Assembly (NCBI RefSeq): GCF_008123425.1
Contig: NZ_VSSS01000007.1
Location: 62,001-126,000 of the forward strand
From: Bradyrhizobium rifense
GTDB lineage: Bacteria; Pseudomonadota; Alphaproteobacteria; Rhizobiales; Xanthobacteraceae
Reading direction: 5' to 3'
DNA length: 64,000 nucleotides
Under the pieces are notes generated by a model. It was not told where the DNA came from. It saw nothing but the letters and a program-made list of their open reading frames with translations, and did no database searches. The translations under genes were made by a program, and so were the position numbers. This document shows positions 40,068 through 47,849 of this stretch, in pieces (position 1 is the first letter of the stretch; the number at the start of each line of letters is the position of its first letter).

Positions 40068-41510
40068 ATGCCCGCAGGTAGCATTCTCGTAGCTGATGAC
40101 GACACCGCCATCCGCACGGTTCTCAACCAGGCGCTTTCCCGGGCCGGGTATGAAGTCAGGCTGACCGGCAATGCCGCGACGCTGTGGCGTTGGGTCAGCC
40201 AGGGGGAGGGCGATCTCGTCATCACCGACGTGGTGATGCCGGACGAAAACGCCTTCGACCTGTTGCCGCGGATCAAGAAGATGCGGCCGAATTTGCCGGT
40301 CATCGTCATGAGCGCGCAAAACACTTTCATGACGGCGATCCGGGCCTCCGAGCGTGGCGCCTATGAATATCTGCCAAAACCCTTCGACCTGAAGGAGCTG
40401 ATCGCCATCGTCGGCCGCGCACTCGCGGAGCCCAAGGAGCGGATCGCGACGCCGGACGACGACTCCGAGATGGAGGCGATCCCGCTGGTCGGCCGCTCGC
40501 CGGCGATGCAGGAAATCTACCGCGTGCTCGCGCGGCTCATGCAGACCGATCTCACCGTGATGATCACGGGCGAGTCCGGTACGGGCAAGGAGCTGGTGGC
40601 GCGCGCGCTGCATGATTACGGCAAGCGCCGCAACGGCCCGTTCGTTGCGGTCAACATGGCGGCGATCCCGCGCGACCTCATCGAATCCGAGTTGTTCGGT
40701 CATGAGCGTGGTGCCTTCACCGGTGCCAACACCCGTGCGTCCGGCCGGTTCGAGCAGGCCGAGGGCGGCACGCTGTTCCTCGACGAAATCGGCGACATGC
40801 CGATGGAGGCGCAGACCCGCCTGCTGCGCGTGCTGCAGCAGGGCGAATACACCACCGTCGGCGGCCGCACGCCTATCAAGACCGACGTGCGCATCGTCGC
40901 GGCCTCCAACAAGGATCTGCGCGTGCTGATCCAGCAGGGGCTGTTCCGCGAGGATTTGTTCTTCCGCCTCAACGTCGTGCCGCTGCGGCTGCCCCCTTTG
41001 CGGGAACGCATCGAGGACTTGCCGGATCTGATCCGTCACTTCTTCGCGCTGGCCGAGAAGGACGGCCTGCCGCCGAAGAAGCTCGATTCGTTGGCGCTGG
41101 AGCGGCTGAAGCAGCATCGCTGGCCCGGCAACGTGCGCGAGCTTGAAAACCTCGCCCGGCGTCTCGCCGCGCTCTATCCGCAGGACGTGATCACGGGCTC
41201 CGTCATCGACGGCGAACTCGCGCCGCCCTCGGTCAGTCCGGGCGCTGCGGTCCAGCAGGGCGTCGACAATCTCGGCGGCGCGGTCGAGGCCTATCTCTCA
41301 TCGCACTTCCAAGGCTTCCCGAACGGCGTGCCGCCGCCGGGCCTCTATCACCGCATCCTCAAGGAGATCGAGGTGCCGCTGCTCACGGCCGCGCTCGCCG
41401 CCACCCGCGGCAACCAGATCCGCGCCGCCGATCTGCTCGGCCTCAACCGCAACACGCTGCGGAAGAAGATCCGGGATCTCGATATCCAGGTGTATCGGAG
41501 CGGGGGCTAG
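40068..41510 (+). CDS. ntrC: nitrogen assimilation response regulator NtrC
   Basis: A 480-residue sigma-54 activator. It has a receiver domain with Asp54 (VITDVVMP), an AAA+ domain with Walker A GESGTGKE (168-175), the sigma-54-contacting GAFTGA loop at 215-220 and Walker [12 protein letters not shown], and a C-terminal Fis-type helix-turn-helix ([20 protein letters not shown]). All parts are intact, so it should activate nitrogen-stress promoters. A long hairpin follows the stop and probably ends the transcript. Confidence 0.98.
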
Positions 41511-41520
41511 GCCCTCGGAA

Positions 41521-41569
41521 CGGACGAGTGGCTCAGCTCCCCCTACCAAAGGTGAGCTGAGCCTGTCCG
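41521..41569. terminator. long hairpin after ntrC, probable terminator
   Basis: GGCTCAGCTC (41530-41539) pairs perfectly with GAGCTGAGCC (41554-41563), and an outer CGGAC/GTCCG pair extends the stem. It begins 11 bases after the ntrC stop. No U-tract follows. It separates dusB-ntrBC from the autotransporter and ntrYX. Confidence 0.6.
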
Positions 41570-41679
41570 GATCGCGCTGGCCTGTGTGGTCCGCGCGGTG
41601 AAGTGAAGCGCGAACCGGGCTGAAATGTTCCTCGGGAACGTTCGAATTCGTCATTAGGCCGCAGAGCGCAGCGTCGCAC

Positions 41680-41826
41680 CTATCTGATCAGGCGCGCTGC
41701 GACCGGCTCGATGTTGGCCATCTGCGCCGTCTGGTCCTGCCTGCTCGGGCCATTGACCAGCAGGTCAGAGGCCACGATCAGCAGCAGCACCGCCGATACC
41801 ATGATCGCGAGAAATATCCTGTCCAT
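41680..41826 (-). CDS. tiny membrane protein
   Basis: A 48-residue ORF on the minus strand. A short start (MDRIF) leads into one hydrophobic helix (LAIMVSAVLLLIVASDLLV), then a polar tail (NGPSRQDQTAQMANIEPVAA). The pattern of one helix followed by a soluble tail, with GC-rich third positions, suggests a real small membrane protein. It lies in the ntrC-autotransporter gap, opposite to both, within the shared upstream region of the autotransporter. Confidence 0.5.
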   Translation of the reverse strand: MDRIFLAIMVSAVLLLIVASDLLVNGPSRQDQTAQMANIEPVAARLIR

Positions 41827-41997
41827 GCCGGGTCAAGCCGGAATGGCCGGATTCTGTTCCGGGCAATGTGCGCGGACGCAACGATACATGAGCCAGACAT
41901 GTTCTGGAACTCACGATCCGGGCGTGGTAGGGAACCACCGAAATGAGACCTTTTGACGCAGGCGCGGCAAGCGTGCGCGCCCTGCGGAAGGTGGCCA

Positions 41998-44900
41998 ATG
42001 AGTTGCGTCCGTATCGTCGCGTTTGCCGCAGCCGGCTTCGGTCTGATGCCGGGGCCTGGCCTGGCGCAGTCGGTCGACATCCCGCTCGGCTACACCATCA
42101 ACACCGGCGCCAATTACGGCTTCAACAACCCCAATCCGGCGCTCGTCCTGACGATCAATGTCGGCGTCAACGGCGGCGCGGCGCAGACCTACGCCTTCGA
42201 TACCGGATCGTCCGTGTTCCTGGCGCCGAGCAGCGTCTACGCCGGCGGGGCCCCGACGGTGCTCGCGACCGGCGTCAACGTCGAGACTTATGGTACTTCG
42301 CCCACCAGCGCGTTCACCGGAGATCTCTATCAGATCTCCGCATCGGCGCTGAAATTCTACGCGACAGCGGGTGCAACGTCCGGCGGCATATCGCTTGGGA
42401 CGACAGGCAATTACAACGTCGCCTCGTACACCTCGTATTCGTTGTCGAGCGGCGGCGCCACCAGCTCGCAACCGTTCGGCGCGTCGGTCGGCGTGTTCGG
42501 CGCCTCGGCGCTCGCCTTCACCAAGACCGTAGCGGGATCGGCGATTGGCCTCGGCAGCGTGATCGGCCAGACCAACGTTGCGAACACCACGGCCGGTTAC
42601 ATGGTGGCGGCCAATGGCCAGAGCCTCGCCGCGCTCAATGCGCAGCTCAACACCAGCATTCCCGGCGGCCCGGTCACGAGTGCGCAGCAATCGATCCAGA
42701 CCGTTCCGCAGTCGATCACAAGCTGCAACCCTTGCGTGACGGTCGGCCTGACGCCGGCGCTGATCGCACAATTCCAGTCCGTCAACACGGTCGCTGCGGG
42801 CAGCAACGGCATCAGCTTTCCGAACTCCAATGTGCTGAGCATGGGCAAGTTCGTGCCGCTTAATTTCTCGGTCGGCTTCCGCGCGCCGTTCAGCCTCAAT
42901 GTCTCCCTGGATACCGGATGGACCGACTTCGCAGTGTCATCCGGCAGGGGAGCTCCGCCGACGCTGACCGTCTCGGCCAACAGCAACGGCACGCAGGAGA
43001 CGTTTAACATCGCTTCCGCTCGCGGCGTGCCGTCGCCTTACGCGCTGGCGAATTCGAGCGCCGACATCCTGGGCATCGGGTTCTTCGTGCAGAACTCCGT
43101 GCTCTACAATCTGGCCGGACAACAGGTCGGCTATTCCCCGAATTTCGTCACCGACGCCAACATCGCCACGACCCAGCCGCTCGTCATCGACGCGAATTTG
43201 GTGCCGCTGGGGCTCGCCGGAGTGATTTCAGGTCCCGGCGGCCTGTCGATCGCGGCCGGCGGCTCGGCGACGCTCAGCGGCACCAACACCTATACCGGGC
43301 CGACAAATGTGTCGGGGGACAGCGCCTATCTGGCGCTGGTCGGCCCAGGCAGCATCGCGCCATCGAGCGGCGTCAATGTGTCGGCCGGCGGATGGTTCGA
43401 CGTATCGGGCGCGAGCACGGCCGCCACGATCAAATCGCTGTCCGGTGACGTCGACGGCCTGGTCTGGCTCGGCGCCAATTCACTGGCGCTGTCGGCCGCA
43501 AGCGGCGTATTCGCGGGAACGATCGTCGGCACCGGCGGCCTCGAGCTGTTATCCGGACACCAGACGCTCTCCGGCATCAACGGCTACACCGGGATGACCG
43601 TAGTCAGCGGCGGAACGCTGACCGTGAACGGAACAATTGCGAGCTCGTACCTGACGCTCGTCGGTCCCGGCGCGACCCTGGCGGGCACCGGAACGATCGG
43701 CCTGTTGAGCGTGCTGGACGGCGGCACCTTCGCGCCCGCATGGGGCATGCCGGCGCGCACGATGAATGTTGCGGGCGACCTCATCCTGTCGTCAGGAGCG
43801 AACTATGCCGTGCAGTTGGGTGCGAGCAGCGCGGCCTTCGCCAACGTCAGTGGTAACGCCTCGCTCGCGGGAACACTGGCCATCAGTCCCGCACCCGGCA
43901 GCGCGCTCATCAGGCAGTATGATCTCCTGCACAGCGGCAGCCTGGGAGGTACCAGTTTCGGAGGGATCACGACGTCGCTGCCGGGCTTCTCCACAAGCCT
44001 GAGCTATTCCGCGACCGACGCCACTCTCACGCTCGATGCCGCACTCTTGGCGCAGGCGCAAACGTCCGGCATCGGGGCCAACGGTCAGCGTATCGCAAAA
44101 CTGCTCGACGCGAGCTTCAACACCACGGGCACGACGTCGGCAGGTTTCTCGCCGCTCTACACGCTGACCGGCCGCAACCTCGGCAATGCCTTGACGCAGG
44201 CATCAGGCGAGGCAGGGACCGGCGTCCAGCAGACCAGCTTCAACGCGATGGATCAGTTCCTTGGCCTGCTCATGGATCCCGGCGTCGGCGAGCAGGGCGG
44301 AACGCGCTGGTCCGCGACTTCAACATCGAATTTTGCCGGCGCGGACGACGAGCTCGCCTATGCCGCGACGTCACGCACGCGACGTGCCAGCGAGCGCGAC
44401 GCCTATGGGCTGATGGCCAAGGCACCCCTGCGAACGAATTATGATCCGCGCTGGAGCGTGTGGGCGTCGGGCTTTGGCGGCTCGCAATCGAGCGATGGCA
44501 ATGCCGCAGTCGGCTCGAACGCTGCGACCAGCCAGGTGTTCGGCACGGCGGTGGGCGCCGACTATCTGCTCTCGCCACGCACGGTCATGGGCTTTGCGCT
44601 CGCAGGTGGGGGCACCAACGCCAGCGTCGCCAACTCCGGAGCGGCGCGCTCCGATCTGTTCCAGGCCGGCGCGTTCGTTCGGCACAAATCGGGGGCGGCT
44701 TACATTTCCGCCGGATTCGGCTATGGCTGGCAGGACATCACCACCGACCGCACGGTGACGGTGTCCGGCGTCGACCGCCTGCGGGCGGAGTTTCACGCCA
44801 ATGCCTGGTCAGGCCGTGTCGAGGGCGGCTATCGCCTCGCCATTTCCTCATTGAAGGGTTTTGGCATCACACCCTATGCGGCCGCCCAATTCACCACGAT

Positions 44901-45294
44901 CGCGCTGCCGGCTTATGCCGAATCCGCGGTGTCGGGGGCGGGGACGTTTGCGCTGTCCTATTCGGGGCGCAACGTCACCGACAGCCGTAGCGAGATCGGC
45001 GTCCGCACCGATCAAACTTTCGCAATCCGGAACGGCCTGCTGACCGTCAATAGCCGGTTGGCCTGGGCACATGATTTCGATCCGGACCGCTGGGCGGCGG
45101 CATCGTTTCTGGCGCTGCCTGCATCGGGCTTCACTGTCAGCGGCGCGGCGCAGGGCCGCGACGCGGCACTCACCTCGCTCGGAGCGGACATCAACTGGCT
45201 GAACGGCTGGTCCGCCCGCGCCGGGTTCGAGGGTGCGTTCGCCGATGTCAGCCGTTCCTATGCCGGTAAAGGACTGCTCCGGTACGCGTGGTAG
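41998..45294 (+). CDS. autotransporter with pepsin-like aspartic protease passenger
   Basis: A 1098-residue type Va autotransporter. A signal peptide (CVRIVAFAAAGFGLMPGPGLAQ) is followed by about residues 45-385 with the marks of a two-lobed pepsin: YAFDTGSS with Asp68, a flap-like YGT (98-100) followed by SAFTGDLYQ, a second VSLDTGWT with Asp305, and a C-terminal ILGIGFFVQ-x5-NLAGQQVGY block that matches the pepsin ILG ending. Passenger-associated beta-helix repeats follow (SGTNTYTGPTNVSG; SGINGYTGMTVVSGGTLTV). The last about 280 residues are the outer-membrane beta-barrel, ending in an aromatic residue (YAW). ATG 41998 with a GGAAGGTGG site is preferred to TTG 41953. Protease activity is inference. 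Confidence 0.85.
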   Translation: MSCVRIVAFAAAGFGLMPGPGLAQSVDIPLGYTINTGANYGFNNPNPALVLTINVGVNGGAAQTYAFDTGSSVFLAPSSVYAGGAPTVLATGVNVETYGTSPTSAFTGDLYQISASALKFYATAGATSGGISLGTTGNYNVASYTSYSLSSGGATSSQPFGASVGVFGASALAFTKTVAGSAIGLGSVIGQTNVANTTAGYMVAANGQSLAALNAQLNTSIPGGPVTSAQQSIQTVPQSITSCNPCVTVGLTPALIAQFQSVNTVAAGSNGISFPNSNVLSMGKFVPLNFSVGFRAPFSLNVSLDTGWTDFAVSSGRGAPPTLTVSANSNGTQETFNIASARGVPSPYALANSSADILGIGFFVQNSVLYNLAGQQVGYSPNFVTDANIATTQPLVIDANLVPLGLAGVISGPGGLSIAAGGSATLSGTNTYTGPTNVSGDSAYLALVGPGSIAPSSGVNVSAGGWFDVSGASTAATIKSLSGDVDGLVWLGANSLALSAASGVFAGTIVGTGGLELLSGHQTLSGINGYTGMTVVSGGTLTVNGTIASSYLTLVGPGATLAGTGTIGLLSVLDGGTFAPAWGMPARTMNVAGDLILSSGANYAVQLGASSAAFANVSGNASLAGTLAISPAPGSALIRQYDLLHSGSLGGTSFGGITTSLPGFSTSLSYSATDATLTLDAALLAQAQTSGIGANGQRIAKLLDASFNTTGTTSAGFSPLYTLTGRNLGNALTQASGEAGTGVQQTSFNAMDQFLGLLMDPGVGEQGGTRWSATSTSNFAGADDELAYAATSRTRRASERDAYGLMAKAPLRTNYDPRWSVWASGFGGSQSSDGNAAVGSNAATSQVFGTAVGADYLLSPRTVMGFALAGGGTNASVANSGAARSDLFQAGAFVRHKSGAAYISAGFGYGWQDITTDRTVTVSGVDRLRAEFHANAWSGRVEGGYRLAISSLKGFGITPYAAAQFTTIALPAYAESAVSGAGTFALSYSGRNVTDSRSEIGVRTDQTFAIRNGLLTVNSRLAWAHDFDPDRWAAASFLALPASGFTVSGAAQGRDAALTSLGADINWLNGWSARAGFEGAFADVSRSYAGKGLLRYAW

Positions 45295-45428
45295 CCCTGC
45301 ATCCTCTGTGGATGCGCCGGTCCGCCGCGGAGAAGACGCCGCGGAATTGTCGCAATTCGGCAACAATGTGGTACGAATACATCAGTACCCGCCCATCGCG
45401 GACCCCTTTTCAGCACCCCATTGCCGGA

Positions 45429-47849
45429 ATGACCAGCGCAGATACCTCGGCCGCATCCTTTGACACGGCCCCAGCGGAAGAGCCCCGGCGTTGGTCGGTG
45501 CGGCGCTGGCTGGTGCCGTTTGCGGTCGCGCTGGCGCTGTTATCGGGCCTCCTGACCTTCCTGGTCCTGACCGGCCTCACCAGGATCGATCCGACTCCCG
45601 AAGTGGTCCGCTCGTTCTACCTGATCAATGCGGGCACGATCCTGCTGCTGGTCGGCATCATCGTGCGCGAGCTCTGGCAGCTGATCCTGGCGCGGCGGCG
45701 GGGCAGGGCGGCGGCGCGCCTGCATGTCCAGATCGTCAGCCTGTTCTCGATCGTCGCGGTGCTGCCGGCGGTGCTTGTTTCCGTCGTCGCCAACGTCACC
45801 CTCGAACGCGGTCTCGACCGGCTGTTCTCGGGACCGACCAAGGAAGTCATCCAGAACTCGCTGGATATCGCGCGGGCCTATATGCAGGACCATGCGCAAT
45901 TGATCCGCGGCGACATCATCGGCATGGCCAATGATATCGCCCATGCAAGGCCGCTCTACGACCAGGATCGCCGGTCGTTCCGCGAGCTGCTGACCGCCAG
46001 CGCCGGCTCCCGCAATCTGCCGGGCGCGATGATCATCGACAAGAACACCAATATCCTGGAGTCCGCCGACACCGGCATGCGACTGGCCTATTCGCCGCCG
46101 GCGCCGGACTTCCTCAGCAACGTCAACGAGAATGAGCCCGAGATCGCGGTGCTGCCGGATGCGAGCTTCGTCGCGGCGGTGATCCGCCTGCGCGCCTTCA
46201 GCGACACGTTCCTGTACGTCGCCCGCCCGCTCGATCCGAAGGTCGTCAGTCAGCTCAAGCAGACCGAGATCAGCGTCGCCGAATACGCCCAGATCGAGTC
46301 ACGCCGGCTCGGCATCCAGGTGGCGTTTGCGCTGATGTTTGCGGTGATCGCGCTGACCATCCTGATGGCCTCGGTGCTGATCGGCCTCAACTTCGCCAAC
46401 TCGCTGGTGGCACCGATCCGGCGGTTGATGAACGCGGCCCACACCGTGTCGACCGGTGACCTCCATGTGAAGGTGCCCGTGCATCAGTCCGAAGGCGATC
46501 TCGCCCAACTCGGTGAGACCTTCAACAAGATGACGCAGGAATTGCGCAGCCAGCGCGACGAGCTCGTCAACGCCAGCGACCTCATCGACAGCCGCCGCCG
46601 CTTCATCGAGGCCGTGCTGTCCTCTGCAAGCGCCGGCATCATCGGCGTCGACACCTCGGGCAGCGTCGGCATCCTCAACCGCTCCGCCGAGAAGCTGATC
46701 GGGCATTCCGAGGCCGAGACGCTCGGCCATCCGCTCTCCGACGTGCTGCCCGAGCTCGACGAGATGATGAAGACGTCGCGGGAAGGGACCCAGCGCCTGG
46801 TGCAGGGCCAGATCACCATCACGCGCGACGGCACCGAGCGAAATCTCTCGGTGCGCGTCAGCGCCGAGAAGAACCAGCCGCACGACAGCTACATCATCAC
46901 GCTCGACGACATCACCGAACTGGTGTCGGCGCAGCGCACCTCGGCCTGGGGCGACGTCGCGCGCCGCATCGCCCACGAGATCAAGAACCCGTTGACGCCG
47001 ATCCAGCTCTCCGCCGAGCGCATCCGCCGCAAGTTCGGCAAGGACATCACCGAGGCCAAGGACAAGCAGATCTTCGAGCAGTGCACCGACACCATCGTGC
47101 GCCAGGTCGACGACATCAGGCGCATGGTCGACGAGTTCTCGCGCTTTGCGCGGATGCCGAAGCCCGTGATGGAAGGTGAGGATGTCGCCGACACCGTGCG
47201 GCAGGCGGTGTTCCTGATGAAGGTCGCCCATCCCGAGATCGATATCGAGGCCGAGTTCAGGGACGATCCGCTGCGCGCCCAGTTCGACCGGCGGCTGATC
47301 TCGCAGGCGGTCACCAACATCGTCAAGAACGCCACCGAGGCGATCGAGCAGGTTCCGCCTGAGGAGCTTGGCAAGAACGGTGGCAAGGGCCGCATCGACG
47401 TCGTGGTGTCGCGCGAAGGCGAGGACGTGCTGATCGACGTGATCGACAACGGCATCGGCCTGCCCAAGGTCGCGCGCTCGCGGCTGCTCGAGCCCTATGT
47501 GACGACGCGCGCCAAGGGCACCGGCCTTGGCCTTGCCATTGTCGGCCGCGTGCTGGAAGACCATGGCGGCCGCATCGAGCTGAAGGACGCCTCCGATTTC
47601 CGCGAGGGCCAGCGCGGCGCCTGGATGCGGATGCGCTTTGCGATCTCCGGCGAGGCCAAGAAGGCCGAGGGAGCCGAGGAGGCGCCGGCAGCCAAAGCAC
47701 CGGTGAAGGACGCAGCTGCGGCGGATATCAAGGCAACGGCTGCGGATTCCGTCACGGCGCGGGAAACAAAAGAGCCGGCGGGCGAAACCAAAGAGCCCGC
47801 TGAAAAGACCAATGATTCAACGAAAATCGAAGCCTCAACAGGCATCTGA
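45429..47849 (+). CDS. ntrY: nitrogen regulation membrane sensor kinase NtrY
   Basis: An 806-residue membrane histidine kinase. N-terminal helices (LVPFAVALALLSGLLTFLVL and two more before residue 130) precede a periplasmic/extracytoplasmic segment. A further helix, a HAMP domain (SLVAPIRRLMNAAHTVSTGD), a PAS domain, the H-box [20 protein letters not shown] and the G2 box GTGLGLAIVGRVL follow. An unusual Ala/Lys/Glu-rich tail of about 60 residues follows the kinase domain. The ATG at 45429 (MTSADTS) is chosen; ATG 45366 would add 21 residues. ntrX follows 17 bases later. Confidence 0.95.
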   Translation: MTSADTSAASFDTAPAEEPRRWSVRRWLVPFAVALALLSGLLTFLVLTGLTRIDPTPEVVRSFYLINAGTILLLVGIIVRELWQLILARRRGRAAARLHVQIVSLFSIVAVLPAVLVSVVANVTLERGLDRLFSGPTKEVIQNSLDIARAYMQDHAQLIRGDIIGMANDIAHARPLYDQDRRSFRELLTASAGSRNLPGAMIIDKNTNILESADTGMRLAYSPPAPDFLSNVNENEPEIAVLPDASFVAAVIRLRAFSDTFLYVARPLDPKVVSQLKQTEISVAEYAQIESRRLGIQVAFALMFAVIALTILMASVLIGLNFANSLVAPIRRLMNAAHTVSTGDLHVKVPVHQSEGDLAQLGETFNKMTQELRSQRDELVNASDLIDSRRRFIEAVLSSASAGIIGVDTSGSVGILNRSAEKLIGHSEAETLGHPLSDVLPELDEMMKTSREGTQRLVQGQITITRDGTERNLSVRVSAEKNQPHDSYIITLDDITELVSAQRTSAWGDVARRIAHEIKNPLTPIQLSAERIRRKFGKDITEAKDKQIFEQCTDTIVRQVDDIRRMVDEFSRFARMPKPVMEGEDVADTVRQAVFLMKVAHPEIDIEAEFRDDPLRAQFDRRLISQAVTNIVKNATEAIEQVPPEELGKNGGKGRIDVVVSREGEDVLIDVIDNGIGLPKVARSRLLEPYVTTRAKGTGLGLAIVGRVLEDHGGRIELKDASDFREGQRGAWMRMRFAISGEAKKAEGAEEAPAAKAPVKDAAAADIKATAADSVTARETKEPAGETKEPAEKTNDSTKIEASTGI

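Follow-up and report, generated by a model that had tools for sequence, protein, structure and literature searches.

Introduction

Can a pepsin-like aspartic protease reach the bacterial surface as the passenger of an autotransporter? The question is raised by a gene at 41998–45294 (forward strand) of a 64,000-nucleotide stretch of Bradyrhizobium rifense DNA (NCBI RefSeq assembly GCF_008123425.1, contig NZ_VSSS01000007.1, positions 62,001 to 126,000), the whole of which is called the window below. A preliminary description, made from the letters alone, had read the product as a pepsin-like aspartic protease with two lobes, displayed by an autotransporter, and this reading is now backed by conservation, by a profile search and by a confident model of a homologue; judged from sequence and modelling, the window protein is quite probably a surface-displayed, pepsin-like aspartic endopeptidase. 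Bacterial pepsin homologues have been called rare and intracellular, without signal peptides (PMC2761423), and the preliminary description knew of none tethered to the cell surface; mycobacterial PecA (PE_PGRS35) corrects it there, being presented as a surface-associated aspartic protease in contrast to the generally cytoplasmic aspartic proteases of bacteria (PMC6819658).

Results and Discussion

Conservation of the catalytic motifs

The motifs of the window protein were found at the residues first given for them: Asp68 in FDTGSS, YGT at 98–100, Asp305 in SLDTGWT and ILGIGFF at 357; the spacing of about 237 residues between the two aspartates is exactly 237 (68 to 305), and the flap tyrosine follows the first aspartate by 30 (68 to 98). 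A survey of homologues for both DTG motifs had been named beforehand as a check. In a first alignment of 36 rows (35% mean column identity), D68, T69, G70, Y98, D305 and G307 were invariant. Twelve rows were then added, and L068 and L072 were excluded as second copies of L024 and L044, to give 46 rows; duplicate or fully contained rows were taken out before counting, L006, L007, L008, L079 and L080 were dropped for giving no profile match at an expectation value (E) ≤0.01, and L081 because it looked PF13650-like by eye. The partial rows L063 and L075 and the two halves of L061 were treated as gaps where they do not reach, so that each denominator is the number of rows with a residue at that place. 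In this set the aspartates were retained throughout (D68 in 44/44 rows; D305, with G307, in 43/43) and Y98 was found in 43/44; the second catalytic site reads D-A-G in two rows. The sole row with another residue at the flap tyrosine is L061 (L061:1360-4299), a copy interrupted by an in-frame TGA and, on both counts, probably decaying.

The gene is thus confirmed as real and its motifs as more than chance, since six residues are invariant at a mean column identity of 35%. One of the two peptide patterns used in the genome scan contains FDTGS, and conservation of the first motif was therefore partly selected in the loci found by that scan; D305 and Y98 are in neither pattern, and the other loci were gathered by protein or profile searches. 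A cysteine pair, C-x-P-C, sits between the catalytic motifs of the two lobes (C243 in 41/43 rows, C246 in 38/43) and is absent from both Verrucomicrobial rows. In 42/42 rows the glycine of the second psi-loop-type motif is followed by Ile, Leu, Val or Met (Ile in the window).

Fold and remote homology

The 36-row family profile was run against all PDB sequences and gave nine matches at E ≤10, all of them A1 proteases; candidapepsin-5 was the best (E 0.0032), and chymosins and plasmepsins are among the others. In the four alignments printed, the motifs meet their counterparts: chymosins align at FDTGS and YG, candidapepsin at YG and LLDSGT. A single-sequence phmmer search of the window domain against the PDB returned four weak matches, all to ribosomal protein L11 (best E 0.095).

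For structure prediction, the check also proposed in the preliminary description, the Aquabacter homologue L017 was chosen as a target, its motifs being judged the most pepsin-like. The AlphaFold model of L017 (34 rows) had a predicted local distance difference test score (pLDDT) of 89.6 and a predicted template modelling score of 0.90, and the ten-residue blocks that hold the two aspartates scored 97 and 95. Foldseek comparison of this model with the PDB gave 531 matches at E ≤0.001, of which the best 50 are all aspartic proteases or pepsin-fold domains. In VIA-align, the best 50 rows had Z 21.3–22.0 over 268–284 residues at a root-mean-square deviation (rmsd) of 3.1–3.8 Å; the model was covered over about 1–351, so both lobes lie in one alignment. 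Among the matches listed are pepsin, cathepsin D, plasmepsin II and penicillopepsin, all A1 enzymes (Z about 22 over 268–278 residues). The expected likeness to pepsin over both lobes was therefore borne out for L017; for the window protein itself the prediction was poor, and its fold is inferred from L017 through the alignment, because its own model failed. The single Foldseek match to viral models at E ≤0.001 was to a long Pandoravirus protein, with an rmsd of 21.

These results bear on the possibility that the motifs arose by chance in a Ser/Thr/Gly-rich beta-helical passenger, a composition that favours D-T-G and a suspicion to which the poor model of the window domain lends something. We regard it as hardly credible: it is already contradicted by the invariance in 43–44 rows, by the fold of the homologue, by a profile that matches only A1 entries in the PDB, and by L041, a relative that carries the domain without an autotransporter.

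Points against the assignment and alternative readings

Several observations weigh against a pepsin-like protease. The HMMER match to candidapepsin-5 (E 0.0032) is weak; AlphaFold, run on the window domain itself (10 rows), reached a pLDDT of only 39.9, and the good model is that of L017, 35% identical to the window. PF00026, the Pfam pepsin model, was unmatched by the window protein (E ≤1), by 11 members (E ≤10) and by 34 members (E ≤0.01), and no Pfam or NCBIfam aspartic-protease model matched any member tested; membership of A1 by sequence, as the preliminary description would imply, is not borne out. The family profile was non-significant on bacterial A1 loci (best 4.5 bits, E 0.43, then E 0.63) and some PF13650 loci outscored these (6.8 bits, E 0.088), none significantly; profile comparison with two A1 sequences gave motif-length matches only, with probabilities of 0.7% and 0.5%. 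The profile runs and comparisons with A1 and PF13650 were made with small numbers of sequences, in part with one only, and say little for or against. A four-row A1 alignment in which two subfamilies were mixed was left aside, as was one other alignment. In the alignment, the hydrophobic residue that opens the psi-loop motifs of pepsins is often replaced: in the first motif F and G are found in 43/43 rows and the opening residue is V, I or A in 27/43 and Thr in 16/43, and in the second Gly is found in 42/42 with an opening Thr in 21/42; the window protein itself has the pepsin type in both (V166-F-G and I357-L-G). Lastly, the residue after the second DTG, Thr in 35/43 rows, is Trp308 in the window; Trp occurs in 3/43 rows, all of its own small clade, and could alter the activity of the window protein.

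A tandem retropepsin-like protein of the PF13650 type would share the DTG motifs. L081, PF13650-like by eye, was weakly found by the profile, and in a small mixed set the top, non-significant, profile matches were frames from PF13650 loci, above the bacterial A1 proteins. PF13650 itself was matched neither by the window protein nor by any member scanned (Pfam); profile comparison with 11 PF13650 domains aligned 13 columns at a probability of 1.4%; and the best 50 rows of both Foldseek and VIA-align are of pepsin type, those of VIA-align being aligned over both lobes. This explanation is judged very unlikely.

Loss of catalysis, with the pepsin fold kept as an adhesin or inhibitor, has precedents within A1, where pregnancy-associated glycoproteins and a xylanase inhibitor are non-catalytic relatives (PMC2761423), and the Trp at the position of Thr218 in the window clade speaks for it. 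Both aspartates and the motif glycine are nevertheless fully conserved, and the flap tyrosine nearly so, across deep divergence; binding alone would not require this, as catalysis would. We hold a purely binding role to be unlikely.

Probable display by an autotransporter

The features of the gene are collected in Table 1. The C-terminal barrel was matched by PF03797 at residues 821–1077 (E 1.1e-45; 156.8 bits, cut-off 26), and a PATR repeat at 519–543 lies below the Pfam cut-off. Residues 25–400 gave no Pfam match at E ≤1, and the NCBIfam scan of the window protein gave none in the protease region; a SPATE-type serine protease domain (S6/S8) was not found in the Pfam scan, which returned PF03797 and PATR only. 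EprS, a serine peptidase model of NCBIfam, picks up the barrel region at 76 bits, far under its cut-off of 1700, so that annotation by top hit would wrongly give a serine protease; the model was matched by 30 of 34 members (E ≤0.01). The putative signal peptide looks typical by eye, and a similar hydrophobic stretch was seen, also by eye, ahead of the domain in many homologues. A sigma-70 promoter was not found in a consensus scan.

Table 1: Features of the gene and of its predicted product.
Feature	Position in window	Strand	Basis
Whole gene, aspartic-protease-like type Va autotransporter, 1098 amino acids	41998..45294	+	Open frame and Pfam
Shine-Dalgarno-like GGAAGG, 6 nt before ATG 41998	41986..41991	+	By eye
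Likely Sec signal peptide, residues 1–24 (ends ...GPGLAQ)	41998..42069	+	By eye
Putative pepsin-like two-lobed domain, residues 25–401	42070..43200	+	Conservation and profile search; fold from homologue L017
First catalytic motif DTGSS, Asp68	42199..42213	+	Sequence and alignment
Flap motif YGT, residues 98–100, Tyr98	42289..42297	+	Sequence and alignment
First psi-loop-type motif (hydrophobic-hydrophobic-Gly), VFG, residues 166–168	42493..42501	+	Alignment
CNPC, residues 243–246, conserved Cys pair (possible disulphide)	42724..42735	+	Alignment
Second catalytic motif DTG, Asp305	42910..42918	+	Sequence and alignment
Second psi-loop-type motif ILG, residues 357–359	43066..43074	+	Alignment
Repeat stalk, residues 402–820, likely beta-helix	43201..44457	+	PATR match at 519–543
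Autotransporter beta-barrel, residues 821–1098	44458..45291	+	PF03797, 821–1077

Of 34 members scanned, the window included, PF03797 was found in 29 and PATR in 28 (E ≤0.01). Among those without a barrel, the frames of L028, L031 and L044 run off their contigs and that of L038 stops about 100 bases before the contig end. The fifth, L041 (L041:5782-7119) from Spartobacteria (Verrucomicrobia), is without a barrel and has a PEP-CTERM motif (E 1.1e-5), on which grounds the domain seems to be displayed there by another route.

Proposed mode of action

The Sec signal would take the protein to the periplasm, where the C-terminal barrel would insert in the outer membrane; the passenger would then cross and fold outside, with the two-lobed domain at the tip of the repeat stalk, and may or may not be released. 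Catalysis would use one aspartate from each lobe (Asp68 and Asp305) to activate a water molecule, with the flap residue Tyr98 closing over the bound peptide; two aspartates from two lobes and a flap tyrosine are the arrangement of pepsin (PMC2761423). The likeliest role would be limited proteolysis on or close to the cell, of environmental proteins or, as with PecA, of surface proteins of the cell itself.

The preliminary description had spoken of an acid protease acting on host or soil proteins; this is a guess, and for an acid enzyme no support was found. In pepsin, Thr218 bonds Asp303; in the window protein the corresponding sites, set by motif position only, are Trp and Ile. Residue 218 is a poor guide to the pH optimum, since shewasin A was most active at pH 4 and the neutral optimum predicted from this residue failed (PMC4814920).

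The same protein could instead process itself or other surface proteins or autotransporters, in the manner of PecA or of NalP-type autotransporters, and leave outside proteins alone. PecA cleaves itself and PE_PGRS surface proteins (PMC6819658), and possible substrates are at hand: PF03797 was matched 18 times in the genome at E ≤0.001, once by this gene, and 15 of the matches exceed the cut-off. On the other side, neither a cleavage site nor a partner gene was identified, and the neighbours tested are DusB and nitrogen-regulation proteins. We treat such a processing role as a tentative alternative. APRc of Rickettsia, a retropepsin-like enzyme, processes autotransporters in vitro (PMC4140852). 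A further peptidase that processes autotransporters (PMC10414592) is a putative serine protease and was set aside as a precedent.

Comparison with known proteases

Among the closest known proteases is the C-terminal domain of mycobacterial PecA/PE_PGRS35 and the related PE_PGRS16 (PF20729; PDB 4EHC, the PE_PGRS16 domain). It too has an aspartic protease fold, is bacterial and surface-associated, and carries one DTG and one DSG motif. Against the L017 model, 4EHC ranked 13th in Foldseek (E 1.8e-8), with the top target-length TM-score (0.69) among the best 50; it fell outside the best 50 VIA-align rows, to which no weight is given. The PecA group is secreted by the type VII route, with a PE domain at the N-terminus and the protease at the C-terminus (PMC6819658 and, in part, general background); the aspartates are 177 residues apart in the PecA/PE_PGRS16 group against 237 in the window, and PF20729 was not matched in the window protein or in the family members scanned (Pfam).

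Shewasins have the two lobes and the flap tyrosine in common with the window family; in shewasin A (D37, Y69, D282) the Asp–Tyr and Asp–Asp spacings are 32 and 245, against 30 and 237 in the window (PMC2761423). They differ in lacking a signal peptide, shewasin D being mainly cytoplasmic (PMC2761423, PMC4814920), and in belonging to A1, whereas the window family gave no PF00026 match.

Measured against A1 as a whole, the window protein has the two aspartates in D-[ST]-G (D68TG and D305TG) and the flap tyrosine Y98, and the two-lobed fold holds for the L017 model only. The full A1 motif, hydrophobic-hydrophobic-D-x-G-[ST] (PMC2761423), is found at the first site (AFDTGS), whereas the second (SLDTGW in the window) departs from it; the position of pepsin Asp303 is hydrophobic in 42/42 family rows. 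Identity between the A1 enzymes and L017 was 12–18% among the rows listed, with no sequence-family match.

SPATEs and subtilisin-like autotransporters have the same order of N-terminal protease, beta-helical stalk and C-terminal barrel (PMC9289746); they are serine enzymes of families S6 and S8A, whereas the catalytic set of the window protein is two aspartates. APRc and the secreted retropepsin-like enzymes of Pseudomonas aeruginosa are also exported or envelope-associated aspartic proteases (PMC4140852, PMC12239564); unlike the window protein, they are retropepsin-like and not part of an autotransporter.

The protease groups of a 2022 classification of autotransporters include chymotrypsin-like and subtilisin-like ones (PMC9289746); AaaA, for its part, is an aminopeptidase (PMC6555100). 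A term search of the main texts of three surveys (PMC9289746, PMC6555100, PMC3419190) found neither 'aspart' nor 'pepsin', and among the open-licence papers listed by the searches no description of an aspartic-protease autotransporter was found. No member tested matches the Pfam pepsin model, and the family is therefore set apart from A1; we would call it a new family that appears to work like pepsin and to be delivered like a SPATE. We further lean, with less assurance than for the window protein itself, towards a third, aspartic class of autotransporter proteases: a separate, exported, pepsin-like family spread across Alpha- and Gammaproteobacteria and Verrucomicrobia, also sorted by PEP-CTERM, and neither A1 by sequence nor PecA. 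Autotransporters would then have gained a new catalytic class, with apparently two display formats on Gram-negative cells, and the question of how two-lobed aspartic proteases arose a new branch. Such genes are probably annotated by the barrel only, because the Pfam and NCBIfam models scanned miss the protease domain. Activity is directly testable, since the domain is about 380 residues long, a confident homologue model exists and the genes can be taken from a genus of soil bacteria.

Distribution of relatives

Homologues were found in Bradyrhizobium, Reyranella, Aquabacter, Dyella, Paracoccus, Beijerinckiaceae and Verrucomicrobia. The genome of the window (9.95 Mb, 140 contigs) has one copy of the protease domain. 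At E ≤0.001, the threshold for these counts and for that of the next sentence, matches were obtained in 7/265 genomes of the genus (own included), in 7/296 of the family (own, G051, G203 and G264 without an internal stop; three short, with stop codons) and in 2/385 of the class (one being the own genome); a profile search of family genomes gave 6/391, three of them weak. In the family around G813 (Reyranella and kin), 12/75 genomes matched, one weakly, with up to five matches per genome. A species-wide scan with short patterns, by which the count is a lower bound, gave at least 32 loci from 20 assemblies, among them Dyella, Methylocapsa, Aquabacter and two Verrucomicrobia. L013 and L014 have the same domain sequences as the Bradyrhizobium loci L034 and L037. 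Among viral contigs no relative was found, none of 69 pattern matches being confirmed.

In the tree, which leaves out rows below 250 residues and includes the duplicate rows L068 and L072, the window groups with the other Bradyrhizobium and two Beijerinckiaceae rows (nine rows; support 99/96), and a Reyranella-rich clade of 25 rows stands apart (support 100/99).

Of single loci, L018:2309-9192 in Dyella acidiphila holds two diverged copies in tandem; L119:5752-9366 is an open homologue of 1205 codons on a 1.7 Mb conjugative plasmid of Paracoccus denitrificans, absent from the collection's incomplete gene table; and L075:928-2433 is a short relative whose frame has two DTG motifs but matches nothing in Pfam at E ≤1, hence no recognised barrel, although its genome, that of L053, also has autotransporter forms.

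The window genome has no PF00026 match at E ≤0.001. True PF00026 pepsins exist in the genus (one in G064). PF00026 was matched in 5 of 249 phylum genomes (four over the cut-off) and in none of the controls; a further search gave 0/190 class genomes and 0/14 controls, a zero that is uninformative alone. L083:1465-2799, in another Bradyrhizobium genome, is a PF00026 pepsin (E 5.5e-21) with no obvious signal peptide by eye.

Genomic neighbourhood and selection

On the same strand, ntrC (40068–41510; TIGR01818 over cut-off) lies upstream of the gene and a sensor kinase (45429–47849), called ntrY by position, downstream; ntrX (NF051870 over cut-off) comes next after the latter. Also upstream are an ntrB-like kinase and dusB (TIGR00737 over cut-off). 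An 87% identical copy (L042/L137) occupies the same ntrC–ntrY site. In G303 (L136) the site is empty, with about 510 bases between ntrC and ntrY, and in G377 and G363 it holds unrelated genes: FabI and an acetate/propionate kinase family protein at L134, a CusA/CzcA efflux pump and a P-type ATPase at L135. The ntrC–ntrY junction of Bradyrhizobium (41511–45428 in the window) thus takes variable insertions; the gene is a lineage-specific guest there, and its neighbours therefore say little on function. Within 6 kb of L046, a copy of about 62% identity, no counterpart turned up for any neighbouring gene of the window that was tested.

The gene is under purifying selection. Over the gene as a whole, the ratio of nonsynonymous to synonymous substitution rates (dN/dS) came to 0.134 against L042; by part, it was 0.126 (protease), 0.163 (stalk) and 0.094 (barrel). 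Against L046, it was 0.286 for the whole gene and 0.27 for the protease domain.

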